Below are positions 7,627-59,246 of a stretch of 64,000 bases of DNA, piece by piece. Source of the DNA: Kutzneria buriramensis (lineage in GTDB: Bacteria > Actinomycetota > Actinomycetes > Mycobacteriales > Pseudonocardiaceae). The notes beneath the pieces are model-generated. The model was not told the origin of the DNA, made no database searches, and saw nothing but the letters and a program-made list of their open reading frames with translations. The position numbers and the translations under genes were made by a program. The DNA lies in contig NZ_QUNO01000012.1 in the NCBI RefSeq assembly GCF_003387475.1, positions 62,001-126,000 of the forward strand. Direction: 5' to 3'. Position 1 is the first letter of the stretch, and each line of letters opens with the position of its first letter.

Positions 7627-7771
7627 GCTCGGCCGCGCCGGTGCTTCGCACGGTTGCTGGATTTCGATCGCCGCCACTCGACGCACCCACCACCAAGCCG
7701 ATGCGGCGGTCGAAATCCAGCAAGGGCGAGGCACCGGTCACGAGCGGCCGAGCTCCGCGCGGAACGCGCGG
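7627..7771. repeat. Family A palindromic repeat, copy 1 (145 bp)
   Basis: A long imperfect palindrome (7627-7753; outer arms GCTCGGCCG and CGGCCGAGC; inner arms TTGCTGGATTTCGA and TCGAAATCCAGCAA) followed by a separate 7-bp hairpin, CCGCGCG-GAA-CGCGCGG (7755-7771). The same arrangement and length recur at 17699-17843, and the right end recurs at 36354-36393. Arm changes between copies are partly compensatory. It abuts the promoter of sua5: TAAGAT begins 3 bp after it. No transposase or flanking direct repeat was seen. Confidence 0.88.
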
Positions 7772-7773
7772 CA

Positions 7774-7779
7774 TAAGAT
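7774..7779 (+). promoter_or_regulatory. -10 element of sua5, leaderless-type promoter
   Basis: TAAGAT ends 6 nt before GTG 7786, so transcription would start at or next to the start codon. There is no Shine-Dalgarno. The -35 region would fall inside the right end of the family A repeat. Confidence 0.6.
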
Positions 7780-17662: not shown

Positions 17663-17700
17663 GCGGTGGGGGTGCCGACTCCGGTCGGCACCCCCACCGC
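17663..17700 (+). terminator. Perfect 17-bp hairpin between atpD and atpC
   Basis: GCGGTGGGGGTGCCGAC (17663-17679) pairs perfectly with GTCGGCACCCCCACCGC (17684-17700) around a TCCG loop. It starts 6 bp after the atpD stop. No U tract follows. Its right arm runs directly into the family A repeat. It probably reduces or ends readthrough into atpC. Confidence 0.8.
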
Positions 17701-17843
17701 GAGGCCGCGCCGGTGCCTGGAGCGGTTGGCGGATTTCGAGCGCCGCCACCCGACGCACGCACCAGCCGAGCCGACGCGGCGCTCGAAATCCGGCAAGCGA
17801 AGGCACCGGGTCCGAGCGGCCTCGCCCCGCGCGGAACGCGCGG
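17699..17843. repeat. Family A palindromic repeat, copy 2 (145 bp), inside the atp operon
   Basis: Same length and layout as 7627-7771: outer arms GCGAGGCCG and CGGCCTCGC, inner arms GGATTTCGAGCGCCGC and GCGGCGCTCGAAATCC, then the identical mini-hairpin CCGCGCG-GAA-CGCGCGG at 17827-17843. Outer-arm substitutions relative to copy 1 are matched on both sides, so pairing is kept. It separates atpD from atpC. Confidence 0.88.
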
Positions 17844-18737: not shown

Positions 18738-18837
18738 AACCCCCGCGAGTCGCGCTCTCAGACACATCGAATGTAGGTCTCGGGCACATGCCTGAGACCT
18801 ACATTCGGTGTGCTCCAGAGCGCGACTCGCCGGGTTC
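18738..18837. repeat. Family B palindromic repeat, copy 1 (about 100 bp)
   Basis: The two halves are near-perfect reverse complements: GCGAGTCGCGCTCT...CGAATGTAGGTCTC on the left and GAGACCTACATTCG...AGAGCGCGACTCGC on the right, meeting at GGCACATGCC. It fills the gap between the convergent DUF2550 and adenosyltransferase genes and reaches the latter's stop codon. Related elements lie at 24687-24816 and 31984-32153. A bidirectional terminator role is likely. Confidence 0.88.
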
Positions 18838-24453: not shown

Positions 24454-24686
24454 CTCGGGTGCTCCTTCGGTGGTCTCGCTGACAGGAAGAACCGTATGCG
24501 ATTACATCGTGCACAATCAAGTTGCTAACGATGTGCTCGCGGTCACACGTGGACGGGTTCTTGGCTGTAGGCGACACCATATGTGCAGGTCAGCGTGGTC
24601 CTGATGCGCTCGGCTCAACCGTGCCGAACCTGACCGACCACCGTCCGAACGGGCAACCCCCGCCCGTCCTCACATACCCCGACACG
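24454..24686. other. Intergenic region upstream of the secreted hydrolase
   Basis: About 230 bp, comparatively AT-rich around 24490-24600 (for example ATGCGATTACATCGTGCACAATCAAG). It must hold the promoter of the hydrolase at 23632-24453. The sequence GCACAATCAAGTTGC contains short inverted segments. No gene or RNA was recognised. Confidence 0.5.
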
Positions 24687-24816
24687 CCAAAACCCCCGCG
24701 AGTCGCGCTCTGGGACAGACCGAATGTAAGAACCAGGCAGATCTGAGCCTTGAGGCTCGTTTCTGCCCCAGACCTACATTCGGTGTGTCTGTGAGCGCGA
24801 CTCGCGGGGGTTTGGC
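24687..24816. repeat. Family B palindromic repeat, copy 2 (about 130 bp)
   Basis: Outer arms CCCCCGCGAGTCGCGCTC (left) and GAGCGCGACTCGCGGGGG (right) pair perfectly, as do ACCGAATGTA and TACATTCGGT further in. The middle holds a second palindrome, GGCAGATCTGAGCC...GGCTCGTTTCTGCC, absent from copy 1. It ends 10 bp from the stop of the ABC transporter gene at 24826 and probably terminates that operon. Confidence 0.88.
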
Positions 24817-24825
24817 TGGGGGGGG

Positions 24826-25854
24826 TTACTCGGCGGTGGCGGTGGCCTTGTCCGGGGTCGCCGCCGGGGCGTTCTCCGGGAAGTGGCAGGCGACCTGCTG
24901 GCCGGGGGCCAGCTCCACCAGGGGTGGCTCCACGGTCTTGCACTTGTCCTGGGCCTTCCAGCACCGGGTGTGGAACCGGCAGGCCGGCGGCGGGTTGATC
25001 GGGCTGGGCACGTCGCCGAACAGCCGGATGCGCTCCCGCTTGCCCTTGTTGTCCGGGTCCGGCACCGGCACCGCCGACAGCAGCGCCACCGTGTACGGGT
25101 GCATCGGCCGCTCGTACAGGGCGTTGCGGTCGGCGACCTCCATGATCTTGCCGAGGTACATCACCGCGACCCGGTCGGACACGTGCCGCACCACCGACAG
25201 GTCGTGCGCGATCATCACGTACGTCAGGTCGAGCTCGCTCTGGAGGTCCTCCAGCAGGTTGATCACCTGCGCCTGGATGGACACGTCCAGCGCGGACACC
25301 GGCTCGTCGGCCACGATCAGCTTTGGCTTGAGCGCGAGCGTGCGGGCGATGCCGATGCGCTGGCGCTGGCCGCCGGAGAACTCGTGCGGGTACCGGTTGT
25401 AGTGCTCCGGGTTGAGTCCGACCAGCTCCAGCAGCTCCTGCACGGCCTTCTTGACGCCCTGCGGGGTGGCCACCTTCTGGAGCTTGAACGGGGCGCCGAT
25501 GATGGTGCCCACGTTGTGCCGGGGGTTCAGCGACGAGTACGGGTCCTGGAAGATCATCTGCACGTCGCGGCGCAACGGCCGCATCGCCGAGTTGGACAGG
25601 TGCGTGATGTCCCGTCCCTCGAAGACGATCTTGCCCTCGGTCGGCTCGAGCAGCCGGGTGAGCAGCCGGCCGGTGGTGGTCTTGCCACAGCCGGACTCGC
25701 CGACCAGGGACAGCGTCTCGCCGGTCCGCACCGAGAAGTCGAGCCCGTCGACGGCCTTGACCGCGCCGACCTGCCGGCGCAGCAGTCCCCGGCGGATCGG
25801 GAAGTGCTTGCGCAGTCCCGAAACCGTCAACAGACTGTCCACAGTGGTCTCCAT
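24826..25854 (-). CDS. Peptide ABC transporter ATP-binding protein (OppF/DppF type)
   Basis: A 342-residue ABC ATPase, last gene of the operon. Walker [10 protein letters not shown], signature [13 protein letters not shown], Walker [14 protein letters not shown] and the H-loop [11 protein letters not shown] are visible. The C-terminal oligopeptide-ABC extension has a Cys cluster beginning [14 protein letters not shown] typical of the OppD/OppF iron-sulfur-like motif. It starts 4 bp after oppD-like 25859-26905, so the two are coupled. It ends 10 bp before the family B palindrome. Confidence 0.93.
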
Positions 25855-31210: not shown

Positions 31211-31984
31211 ATGGCCACCTACCAGCACATCCTGCTCGACCGTGCCGGGGCGACGGCACGGATCACCATGAACCGCCCGTCGCGGCGCAATTCGCTGTCC
31301 GCCGACCATCTGGGCGAGCTGCTCGACGCCGTCCGGACGGTGGCCGCGACCGACGCCACCGGTCTCGTCCTGGCCGCCGCCGGGCCGGTCTTCTCCGCCG
31401 GCCACGACTTCGGCGACGTCGCCTCCCGCGACCTGCTCGGCGTCCGTGAGCTGCTGACCACCTGCACGGCGCTGATGCAGGCCTTGCAGTCGGCGCCGCA
31501 GGTCGTCGTCGCTCGCGTGCATGGCCTGGCTACTGCCGCCGGCTGTCAGCTCGTGGCGTCCTGCGACCTGGCCGTAGCGGCGTCGTCGGCGGCGTTCGCA
31601 CTGCCCGGTGGGCACGGGGGCTGGTTCTGCCACACGCCGTCCGTGCCGGTGGCGAGGGCGATCGGGCGTAAGCGGCTGATGGAGATGGCGCTCACCGGTG
31701 ATCCGATCCCGGCGCAGACGGCGTTGGAGTGGGGGTTGGTGAACCGGGTCGTGCCGGACGCCGAGCTGGACGCCGCCGTCGACGAGCTGCTGGCCCGTGC
31801 GACGCGGGGCAGCCGGGCCAGTAAGGCGCTGGGCAAGCGCACCTTGTACGCGCAGTTGGACCGCCCGGAGGCCGACGCCTACACCTTGGCCCTGGAGGTC
31901 ATGGCCGCCGCCTCCCAGCTCCCCGACGCCCGCGAAGGCATGGCCGCCTTCCTGGAGAAACGCCACCCCACCTGGTCCGCCTGA
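31211..31984 (+). CDS. Enoyl-CoA hydratase/isomerase family protein
   Basis: A 257-residue crotonase-fold protein. It has the oxyanion-hole segments SAGHDFGDV and GLATAAGCQLVASCDLAVA and the C-terminal LEWGLVNRVVP. The acidic residues that serve as catalytic acid/base in true hydratases are not both obvious (the second segment has GGHGGWFCHTPS rather than the usual ExGLxP), so it resembles ECHDC3-like or atypical members. ATG 31211 has GGGGAG immediately upstream. The acyl-CoA substrate is unknown. Confidence 0.85.
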   Translation: MATYQHILLDRAGATARITMNRPSRRNSLSADHLGELLDAVRTVAATDATGLVLAAAGPVFSAGHDFGDVASRDLLGVRELLTTCTALMQALQSAPQVVVARVHGLATAAGCQLVASCDLAVAASSAAFALPGGHGGWFCHTPSVPVARAIGRKRLMEMALTGDPIPAQTALEWGLVNRVVPDAELDAAVDELLARATRGSRASKALGKRTLYAQLDRPEADAYTLALEVMAAASQLPDAREGMAAFLEKRHPTWSA

Positions 31985-32153
31985 CCCCCGCGAGTCGCGC
32001 TCTCGAGCACACCGAATGCAGGCCTCGAGCACACCCCCGCGCGTCCCGCTCAGCGACGTACCGAATGTCGGTTTCGTGCAGATCTGAGACCTGAGGCTTG
32101 TTTCTGCCTGAAACCGTATTTCGGTGTGTCTGTGAGCGCGACTCGCGGGGGTT
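31984..32153. repeat. Family B palindromic repeat, copy 3 (half copy plus full copy)
   Basis: A half element (31984-32031: CCCCCGCGAGTCGCGCTCTC...CACCGAATGCAGG) is followed by a full one (32032-32153) whose outer arms are more degenerate on the left (CGCGCGTCCCGCTC) than on the right (GAGCGCGACTCGCGGGGG). The core GCAGATCTGAGACCTGAGG...TTTCTGCC matches that of copy 2. It starts within 3 bases of the hydratase stop. Confidence 0.85.
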
Positions 32154-32229
32154 TGCGGGGTTGCGTTGGTTGTTGCGGGGGTGGAGCGTGGGGGTGGCGG
32201 CCGGGTGGCCGCCCGGTGGTGCACGTTTG

Positions 32230-36299: not shown

Positions 36300-36467
36300 A
36301 TGAAAGTCCTGCTGGTCAGAGCGCCTTGTCAGTGGGGCGGTCGAGCCGCCAGTGGAGGCACCGGCGCGACCTCGCCCCGCGCGGAACGCGCGGCGAACGC
36401 ACAGCGCTCGGCCAGGTCGAGGTCGTTCGCCGGGGCGTCGACCGCGTCTCGGGCTCGTTCACGCTGA
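36300..36467 (+). pseudogene. Possible remnant of the LysR-divergent target gene
   Basis: A frame starting MKVLLVRAPCQWGG faces the LysR gene at the normal distance of a regulated target, but after about 15 residues it runs into the family A repeat fragment (36354-36393) and continues as low-complexity Ala/Arg/Ser before stopping at 36467. The simplest reading is a gene destroyed by deletion or repeat insertion. It may also be chance. Confidence 0.3.
36354..36393. repeat. Family A repeat, partial copy 3
   Basis: GGAGGCACCGG at 36354-36364, then ACCTCGCCCCGCGCGGAACG and the complete mini-hairpin CCGCGCG-GAA-CGCGCGG (36377-36393). This equals the right end of copies 1 and 2; the long left arm is missing. 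No gene-like sequence overlaps it convincingly. Confidence 0.8.
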
Positions 36468-57440: not shown

Positions 57441-59246
57441 TCAGCGCTTCGCGGACTGCCGCGGGTTGGGACGCTGGATCTTCTTGGTCTGCTCGGCGTC
57501 CTTGGCGGCGGCCGGCTGCTGACCACCCTGCTGGGGCTGCTGCTGCGCGGCGCCGGCGGCGCGGGGCTGCTGCTTGGCCGGGGGACGACCGGTGCGCGGC
57601 GTGCCGGGCTTGCCGCCCTTCAGGGGCACCTGCTGCACCGGCTGCGTGACCTGGTTGGGCGTCGCGGCGGGGTTGGTCGTGGTCAGCGGCTGCGCGGCCT
57701 GCGGCTGCGACAGTGCCTGGGTCGCCTGGGGTGCGGATAACGGCGTCGGGGCGGCCTGCGTGTTCGCGGGCTGACCGGCCGGAGCCTGCGGCCGGGAAGC
57801 AGCGGCAGGGGCCTGGGGGCGGTTGGCGGGAGCCTGACCCTGTGGGGCGGCCGTCGGAGCGCCGGCCTGACTCGGCACGGCTGACGGAGCCGCGCCGGCC
57901 TGCGTCGGGGCCTGACCGGACTGGCCTTGCGGGGCCGCCGGCGTGCCGGACTGGCCCTGCGCCGCAGCCGCGCCGGCCTGCGTCGGGGCCTGACCGGACT
58001 GGCCTTGCGGGGCCGCCGGCGTGCCGGACTGGCCCTGCGCCGCAGCCGCGCCGGCCTGCGTCGGAGCCTGACCGGTCTGGCCTTGCGGGGCCGCCGGCGT
58101 GCCGGACTGGCCCTGCGCCGCAGCCGCGCCGGCCGGCGTCGGAGCCTGACCGGTCTGGCCCTGCGGCACTGCCGCCGAGGCCTGCCCCTGGGCCGCCGGA
58201 CCACTGGCCTGCGCCGGGGCGCCGGCCTGCTGGGTGCCCGGCTTTGCCTCGCCACCCTCCGGCACGTTGACCTGCACGGTCGGCGACTCGTCGGCGACCT
58301 TCTCCTCCGGCAGCCGCTCCAGCATCGGCGCCGCGGCGATGATCAAGCCGCGGGCCTCGGTGAGCTGACCGGCGATCCGGTTGCGCAGCCCGCGCAGGTG
58401 CTCGACGCGCCGCGTGGCGTCGCCGACCCGGCGGGCGGACTCGTCGGTGGCCTCCCGCACCCGGCGGTGCGCCTCGTCGGTGGCCTCCTGCAACCGGGCG
58501 GTCGCCTCGGCGATGGAGTCGTGCCGCCGCCGGTTGGCCTCCTCGGTCGCCTCCCGGACCCGCTTCTCGGCCTCGGCCTTGCTGGACGCCTCCTGCTCGG
58601 CCAGCGCCCGCATGGCGTCGGTGCGCCGCGCGGACATGGCGATCTCGAAGTCCTCCTCGACCTGGGTCCGCTTGGCCAGGGAGTCGGCGTCGGCCTTGGT
58701 GCGGACGGCCGCCGCCGCCGCGTCGGCCTCGTCCCGCTTCTGCGCCGACTCGTCCGTGATGCGCTTGGCCTCGGCGTGCGCGGCCTCCATCACGTTCTTG
58801 TGCTCGGTCTCCATGGCCGCGCGCCGCGCGTCCACGTCGCGCATCATCTGCTCGTACCGGGCGCGCAGCGCGGCGCCCTCCTCCTCGGCCCGGGCCCGGA
58901 TGTGCCCGGCCTCGGCCTCGGCCCGCGCCTTGGTCTCGTTGGCCTCCTCCTGAGCGAGCTTCAGCATCCGTTGCAGACGCTCGCTCAGGCCCTCCAGCGT
59001 GGTGGGCGGCAGCGACAGCCGCTCGACCTGGCCGCGCAGGTCGTCGATCTCCGACCGGGCCTTCTCCAGCTGCCTGGCCAGGTCGTTCGCCTGGGACACC
59101 GCGGCGTCCCGATCGGCGGCCAGCAGCTTGAGGTCGGCGTCCAGCCGTTCCAGGTGGTCCTCCACCTGGGCTTTGTCGTAACCGCGCTTGACGACGTCGA
59201 AGCCGGTTCCCAACGGGACGAGATCACGGTCGCTGCCAAGGGCCAT
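57441..59246 (-). CDS. DivIVA-like coiled-coil protein with Pro/Gln/Ala-rich repeat tail
   Basis: A 601-residue protein. Residues 15-36 (FDVVKRGYDKAQVEDHLERLDA) form a DivIVA-type N-terminal motif; long coiled coils extend to about residue 330, with many Glu/Arg/Ala heptads. The remainder is a low-complexity region rich in Gln, Ala and Pro, containing three and a half 26-residue repeats of the type APTQAGAAAAQGQSG...PAAPQGQ. It is likely a scaffold at membranes of negative curvature or the pole. No signal peptide. Probably monocistronic. Confidence 0.85.
   Translation of the reverse strand: MALGSDRDLVPLGTGFDVVKRGYDKAQVEDHLERLDADLKLLAADRDAAVSQANDLARQLEKARSEIDDLRGQVERLSLPPTTLEGLSERLQRMLKLAQEEANETKARAEAEAGHIRARAEEEGAALRARYEQMMRDVDARRAAMETEHKNVMEAAHAEAKRITDESAQKRDEADAAAAAVRTKADADSLAKRTQVEEDFEIAMSARRTDAMRALAEQEASSKAEAEKRVREATEEANRRRHDSIAEATARLQEATDEAHRRVREATDESARRVGDATRRVEHLRGLRNRIAGQLTEARGLIIAAAPMLERLPEEKVADESPTVQVNVPEGGEAKPGTQQAGAPAQASGPAAQGQASAAVPQGQTGQAPTPAGAAAAQGQSGTPAAPQGQTGQAPTQAGAAAAQGQSGTPAAPQGQSGQAPTQAGAAAAQGQSGTPAAPQGQSGQAPTQAGAAPSAVPSQAGAPTAAPQGQAPANRPQAPAAASRPQAPAGQPANTQAAPTPLSAPQATQALSQPQAAQPLTTTNPAATPNQVTQPVQQVPLKGGKPGTPRTGRPPAKQQPRAAGAAQQQPQQGGQQPAAAKDAEQTKKIQRPNPRQSAKR
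57894..58166. repeat. 78-bp tandem repeat (minisatellite) within the DivIVA-like gene
   Basis: Three full units (57894-57971, 57972-58049, 58050-58127) plus a half unit (58128-58166), each 78 bp = 26 codons, starting GCCGGCCTGCGTCGG. Units differ at only a few bases. Being an exact multiple of 3, gain or loss of units keeps the frame. Confidence 0.95.

Follow-up and report, generated by a model that had tools for sequence, protein, structure and literature searches.

REP and REPIN elements with their RAYT transposases are non-coding, palindromic and intergenic, occur in many copies and occupy species-specific sites (available sections of PMC3733652), and the repeats considered here share all of these properties. 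No dedicated transposase is known for the CGTC class of REPs according to the same sections (PMC3733652), which provides a precedent for a palindromic family of this kind. The REP hairpin is 20–40 bp long, whereas the elements described below have a multi-stem frame of 115–165 nt; the GTAG/CGTC tag at the hairpin foot, a REP feature, was not seen at the foot of their 3' hairpin (P4), and no Y1 transposase was found in the genome containing the window. Both tested marks of the RAYT–REP class are missing here. In the Bacillus cereus group, the repeats bcr1–bcr3 are MITE-like and bcr10 and bcr18 have conserved structures, and the repeats are often parts of UTRs and operon gaps (accessible parts of PMC3446304). 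The bcr repeats are likewise intergenic, structured and mobile, but they belong to other bacteria, and no target duplication is seen in the present case. MITEs of DDE transposons are similarly small, non-autonomous, inverted-repeat elements, from which the present repeats differ in the missing target duplication and in carrying P4 and a tail at one end only. No description of the repeat was found among the papers listed by searches of the open-licence PMC literature, and none is mentioned in the available portion of the Kutzneria albida genome paper (PMC4210621). An earlier finding in this DNA was confirmed by the analysis and now extends to a class of mobile repeats, conserved in their fold, in several Actinomycetes.

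The window, i.e., the whole analysed stretch of 64,000 nucleotides of Kutzneria buriramensis, contains two full-length copies and one decayed copy (Table 1). The preliminary description had reported two copies of equal length, each combining a palindrome with a separate 3' hairpin, a third site (36354–36393) that keeps the right end, and a set of named differences between copies 1 and 2; all of these proved correct, the third site being a decayed copy that has kept P4 and some of the 3' arm. It had also placed the copies against sua5 and within the atp operon, in agreement with the Pfam matches of the flanking genes, Sua5_yciO_yrdC for copy 1 and ATP-synt_ab (atpD) and ATP-synt_DE_N (atpC) for copy 2; the other neighbour of copy 1, the TPR-like gene, gave a weak match under the Pfam cut-off. 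Each of the two copies folds into one long hairpin followed by the 3' hairpin, at −104.8 kcal/mol (z −9.4) for copy 1 and −96.8 kcal/mol (z −5.4) for copy 2, and 0 of 200 shuffles equalled either fold. In P1 of copy 1, CTCG faces CGAG. The TAAGAT in the tail of this copy, located six bases upstream of the sua5 GTG (7786), is presumably a candidate −10-like box. A hairpin whose 16-bp stem is perfectly paired lies directly past atpD (17664–17699), and like hairpins with some letters changed are located past atpD in three other genomes of the genus (G001, G003, and G004).

Table 1. Elements and their parts in the window.
Feature	Position	Strand	Remarks
Family A1 element, copy 1	7627..7771	+	145 bp; between TPR-like gene and sua5
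Copy 1, P1 5' arm GCTCGGCCGC	7627..7636	+	pairs with 7744-7753; from fold and column statistics
Copy 1, P2 5' arm	7637..7649	+	pairs with 7726-7738; from fold
Copy 1, P3 central hairpin	7654..7723	+	arms 7654-7674 / 7703-7723, C-rich loop
Copy 1, P4, 3' hairpin CCGCGCG-GAA-CGCGCGG	7755..7771	+	
Copy 1, tail after P4	7772..7785	+	contains TAAGAT (7774-7779)
Family A1 element, copy 2	17699..17843	+	145 bp; between atpD and atpC
Copy 2, P4 CCGCGCG-GAA-CGCGCGG	17827..17843	+	
Decayed copy: 3' arm remnant and intact P4 (36377-36393)	36332..36393	+	covariance model match 36365-36407, E 0.0023; repeat search

Alignments of 30 copies and then of the 146 full-length ones collected in five genomes (197 placed profile matches, 156 of them unique) revealed a shared frame, which in the 5' to 3' order includes the outer stem P1 (GCGAGGYC...), stem P2, an internal loop, the variable central hairpin P3, the returning arms P2' and P1', the 3' hairpin P4, which follows GAGCC or TCGCC, and a tail that is rich in A and ends close to CACAG. 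The letters of P4 vary while its pairing is kept: CCGCGCG-GAA-CGCGCGG was found in 54 of the 100 copies located by the P4 finder, other forms being CCGCCCG/CGGGCGG, CGCCGCG/CGCGGCG, and GCGCCGCC/GGCGGCGC, among others, and most of the 46/146 copies that the finder left unscored have GCGACGCCGAAGGCGGCGC or a near variant. The tail logo reads C-A-W-A-R-R-C-A-C-N-G (100/146 copies), with conservation fading approximately 11 nt past P4. P4 was locatable in 132 of the 146 copies, and 125 were left once similar 3' flanks had been removed; in this set, CACAG occurs 2–14 nt past P4 in 27 copies, compared with 3 at 18–30 nt. Two P1/P2 subtypes, CCGC (44/125) and CCCC (77/125), were distinguished, and a weak motif CCNCC-AA-CCC-A-GGRRA, belonging either to the target or to the element, precedes the P1 5' arm chiefly in the CCCC subtype.

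The outermost positions of the frame (columns 4–5 vs. 131–132) are occupied by GA/GA in 82 of the 146 copies, GA/TC in 39, TC/GA in 19, and other combinations in 6, and the clashing combination TC/TC did not occur in any copy (p 0.0018 by Fisher test for the four main classes). GA opposite GA is not a Watson–Crick pairing; in the CGAG/CGAG context we take it to be a stable tandem sheared G.A motif. Columns 20/109 carry T.G in 95 copies, C-G in 50, and T-A in 1. The compensatory changes that the preliminary description had pointed out between the two window copies thus fared differently by position: the inner covariation was retained and grew with more copies, whereas the covariation of the outermost pair is real, yet a minority state, since Watson–Crick pairs are present in just 58/146 copies.

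Sister subfamilies have the same frame and another P3: P1, P2, the loop GGACCG/CAAGGGAAGG, P4, and the tail are shared, and P3 is the part exchanged. In the A2 subfamily (alignment A3, with 25 of 29 references, 8 of 37 copies having already been left out before), the P3 arms are wholly changed and their pairing is kept, with double changes in 22/36 pairs; alignment A2 has such changes in 13/40 pairs. The three further alignments comprise related sequences and were made with a model already containing the structure. Among them, A4 (19 distinct sequences) is 99.1% paired with double changes in 14/36 pairs, one of five measures, that of further pair types, not exceeding the shuffles (358/500), and A5 (22 distinct) is 97.2% paired with double changes in 28/36 pairs. 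The largest, A6, contains 66 aligned matches (65 distinct), including two A1-type matches, one reverse-strand match, and sequences from a genome of another order (G471) with P3 columns consisting mostly of gaps; 98.5% of its 2181 pair cells are paired, compared with 68.5% in shuffles and 32.5–42.7% in slid alignments, double changes affect 33/36 pairs, and the covariation is 0.642 vs. 0.160 shuffled and 0.044–0.109 slid. RNAalifold applied to the MAFFT alignments A2 and A3, which were not fitted to a model, yielded the same stems, as did single folds in other genera. Double changes accompany the conserved fold in three genera of the family as well as in the genome from another order, and selection on the fold is strongly supported; the selection on structure proposed in the preliminary description persists with more copies and in several alignments. 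A regular-expression search for more subfamilies returned mostly coding noise, and a profile search was used instead.

The search for further copies envisaged at the outset was productive, and covariation was kept as copies were added. The genome containing the window (G000; 11.97 Mb, 65 contigs) has the element in at least 40 places: of 216 first-look candidates, the 40 that were scored gave a place each. The 5'-end pattern is present there in 79 places among the matches listed (one mismatch at most) and, with two mismatches allowed, in 116 vs. 29 for the reversed control; the 3'-end pattern was found in 74 places vs. 0 in the control, and model R2, built for subfamily A2, matched at least 23 places. 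Best-match identity among 52 copies of this genome has a median of 0.90 and a maximum of 0.96, so no very recent burst occurred in it. Many A1 copies are present in five of the seven genus genomes. Model R1, for A1, matched 7 of 150 family genomes, namely five Kutzneria with 19 scored copies each, and G006 and G112 with one match each. Model R2 matched 9 of the 150 genomes and 3 of 46 genera, i.e., six Kutzneria genomes, G112 and G128 of one genus, and G121 of another; the frame hence occurs also in two additional genera of this family. G112 has copies of its own with the same fold (by blastn, 8 strong places and weaker ones), and G005, grouped in the genus, had no match to R1 or R2. Class-wide, 2 of 394 genomes matched, G000 and G471. 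Tandem head-to-tail arrays with a period of 114–115 bp characterize G471, and near-identical copies together with tandem arrays characterize G006. Since these searches were sampled and filtered, the true range of the elements may be wider than the matched one.

Among genome contigs at large, the 5'-end pattern was found in 39 stretches, of which 30 are from Kutzneria sp. 744 or CA-103260. The remaining nine, from unrelated taxa, were dismissed as chance matches, as profiles and models gave nothing better than E 0.0093 and this best match falls away from the pattern match. A phage origin was rejected on the basis of 0 pattern matches in viral contigs. The region of the element yielded 13 Rfam 15 matches, mostly to miRNA hairpins, all under the gathering score.

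Comparison of the syntenic stretches in five Kutzneria species demonstrated that the sites often differ. The sua5 copy is present in G000 alone among the five compared. The atpD–atpC gap contains an element in G000 and in G002, the two differing in subtype and 3' junction, and is without one in G001, G003, G004, G005, and G006. The NUDIX–nucS gap is filled in G003 and G004, with a possible hairpin remnant in G000. One gene end has the element in G000, G004, and, in an internally deleted form, G002, but is empty in the other two species, G001 and G003, the empty joint of G001 being CCCGGGGT-TTAGCTGTCC and the filled site of G004 being GGGGTT-[element]-ATGTTAACTGTCC; one convergent gap contains an A element in G000 and G004, a family B-like palindrome in G002, and other palindromes in G001 and G003. 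Some sites are therefore common to two or three species, and, as the comparisons are between species, any single empty site may reflect a loss.

Traces of insertion were sought at the element ends. The arrays of G471 join the tail directly to the next 5' end (ATGAACACA-GCGAGG and ATGAGCCC-GCGAGG), which suggests that the unit ends at this joint. At the gene end filled in G000, G004, and G002, the bases past P4 match the gene sequence in the empty alleles too, suggesting that the tail motif can in part belong to the target. Target-site duplication was rejected: the match between 5' and 3' flanks of 125 copies (4.35) was not copy-specific when compared with re-paired controls (4.25, sd 0.08), 26 of 200 of which were as high. 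An upstream hairpin target, as in class C group II introns, was likewise rejected, the 40 nt upstream of 146 copies having a mean z of −0.03 vs. −0.13 and −0.17 in the controls (single-base shuffles), although the atpD–atpC site and one array (L400) do happen to follow hairpins.

Many copies per genome, a conserved fold, differing sites, tandem arrays, enrichment at convergent gene ends, and no target duplication were all observed, and we consider it probable that the repeats constitute a family of small mobile elements (~115–165 bp), palindromic and non-autonomous, and that their folded single strand is recognised by a putative enzyme. The proposed unit would comprise the P1 5' arm (GCGAGG or equivalent), P2, an exchangeable P3, the P1 3' arm, P4, and a tail ending near ACACAG. 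Its folded plus strand, either RNA or ssDNA, would be recognised and inserted by the enzyme, and such recognition may explain why the letters of the stems drift whereas fold, wobble, GA/GA mismatch, and tail are retained. Copies would survive mainly at gene ends, where a strong hairpin is presumably least harmful. An influence on the expression of sua5 or atp is hypothetical and would be secondary.

The location of copies relative to genes bears on a different reading, in which the repeat is a host-beneficial structured RNA serving its neighbour genes as a 3'-UTR, terminator, stability element, or sRNA, and which we regard as doubtful. Gene context was assigned, from the calls of a codon-usage caller rather than annotation, to 148 of the 156 unique copies (4 are inside called genes and 4 are without one neighbour): convergent gaps contain 48 of them, co-directional gaps 85, and divergent gaps 15, compared with 67, 207, and 135 of 409 control gaps, which come from one syntenic region in five genomes, the copies coming from many places. 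The convergent enrichment (p 1.2e-6) would suit such an RNA, as would the very strong folds, the covariation, and the antisense downstream genes: among the 83 copies (of 91) with a usable distance, 54 have the stop codon of such a gene 0–15 nt past P4. On the other hand, the co-directional copies are divided into 42 sense and 43 antisense, the same genes in sister species are often without the element, the logo past P4 is A-rich, without the T-run of a terminator, and several copies are internally deleted relics. The context pattern fits tolerance at gene ends and is at odds with an RNA co-expressed with its neighbour, and the convergent enrichment without a sense/antisense bias points to self-propagation rather than host use. 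A palindrome acting at the DNA level, i.e., a cruciform or protein-binding site as for REP/BIME, maintained by DNA function or by arm-to-arm correction, is unlikely. In alignments A3 and A4, the arms do change block by block, one-sided intermediates being few, and there is no excess of G.T over A.C (5 vs. 7 and 2 vs. 2, respectively), nor is there one by columns in A6 (10 vs. 7). However, G.T cells outnumber A.C cells in A1 (265 vs. 28 in 146 copies; 99 vs. 24 without the three wobble columns; 24 vs. 5 by columns, p 2.7e-4) and in A5 (35 vs. 5; 12 vs. 2 by columns), and a DNA palindrome accounts poorly for the conserved T.G at columns 20/109, the GA/GA opposition without TC/TC, and the internal loop GGACCG/CAAGGGAA, which is unequal and conserved. 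On balance, a single-stranded fold of the plus strand, with which RNA and ssDNA fit alike, is favoured over a plain cruciform, and some subfamilies may still have a DNA role. Hence, of the two options in the preliminary description, RNA or cruciform, the plain double-stranded cruciform is the less favoured, and its suggestion that the palindrome is copied as a whole, if taken as arm-to-arm correction alone, is at odds with the conserved wobble and internal loop.

Movement by a Y1 (RAYT-like) transposase, which would make the repeats REP/REPIN-type or IS200/IS605-derived elements, is disfavoured and in our estimate very unlikely. The intergenic location, palindromic nature, kept fold, lack of target duplication, and a 3' hairpin followed by a short motif are all shared with such elements, but the transposase is missing from most carriers. 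Y1_Tnp (PF01797) had 0 matches in G000 and is absent from five of the six tested Kutzneria genomes carrying elements, the only match in the seven genus genomes being one 33-position fragment in G002; among G006, G112, G121, and G128, it was found in G128 alone (two matches, one of them beside a putative tnpB). A Y1/RAYT transposase was accordingly rejected as the common partner. The bias expected from insertion into lagging-strand ssDNA was not seen either, as the listed copies do not segregate by replication strand in G003 (p 0.70, n = 34) or G004 (p 0.28, n = 39). A reverse transcriptase or group II intron-like mover was rejected since PF00078 (RVT_1), with 9 matches in G000, 18 in G003, and 2 in G006, is absent from G001, G002, and G004, all three of which carry elements; nine of the G003 matches (L261, L263, L265, L267, and L269) have the same score and ORF length and are probably one multi-copy intron-type element. 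Inspection by eye of 20 regions with unpaired ends, among the matches listed, revealed no ORF-bearing or autonomous copy; these regions proved to contain members of additional subfamilies, copies either complete or deleted, and coding DNA matched by chance. The ten proteins beside the G471 and G006 copies are ordinary or without assignment and include no transposase recognised by protein-family libraries, which are blind to an enzyme of a new type.

As a tentative extension of the mobile-element reading, the repeats may represent a structure-defined mobile class, distributed over two or more orders of Actinomycetes and spreading by a route other than Y1, reverse transcriptase, or target duplication, which we consider possible, at somewhat less than even chances. 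A putative enzyme of this class would read the three-part fold, the GA-rich internal loops, and the ACACAG-type tail, with P3 as an exchangeable module. It is a covariation model, and not sequence similarity, that reveals one class of mobile repeats across genera and orders, and the question posed is which enzyme copies the folded element in carriers that share neither a RAYT nor a reverse transcriptase and show no target duplication. Systems for testing it are G006, with near-identical copies and arrays, and G471, with its arrays.

Other palindromic repeats accompany the elements. Family B palindromes resemble family A in being intergenic and repeated, several of them at convergent gene ends, and differ in being near-symmetric and without P4. 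Those of the window (18738–18834, 24675–24828, and 31978–32157; ACCCCCGCGAGTCGCGCTCT...) are terminator-like; the first is located between convergent genes, and more copies occur elsewhere in the genome, some of them enclosing an A2 element. Family B-like palindromes enclose A2-type copies at the same place in 13 of the 19 cases listed (window relic excluded), which may reflect either repeated targeting or the spread of one composite. The syntenic sua5 gap in G001, G003, and G004 (L150, L136, and L141, respectively) contains a third type of palindromic repeat, with CACATGTGG motifs in G003 and G004 and a CACGTGCGG variant in G001, and a similar repeat is found in G001 and G003 in the convergent gap where G000 and G004 have an A element. 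In G006 (L356–L373), 14 of 18 aligned copies have another short palindrome downstream, such as GGGAGAGCCCGCATCAGTCCAGCGGGCGACCC, the loop of which resembles the P3 loop of A-type elements. With respect to other features of the window, the only Rfam 15 match at the gathering score is the L31-Actinobacteria ribosomal protein leader (RF03158, 48.7 bits) at 1366–1412, and positions 57807–58177 comprise four in-register copies of a 137-nt repeat with a spacing of 78 bp, 66–98% like the reference copy.
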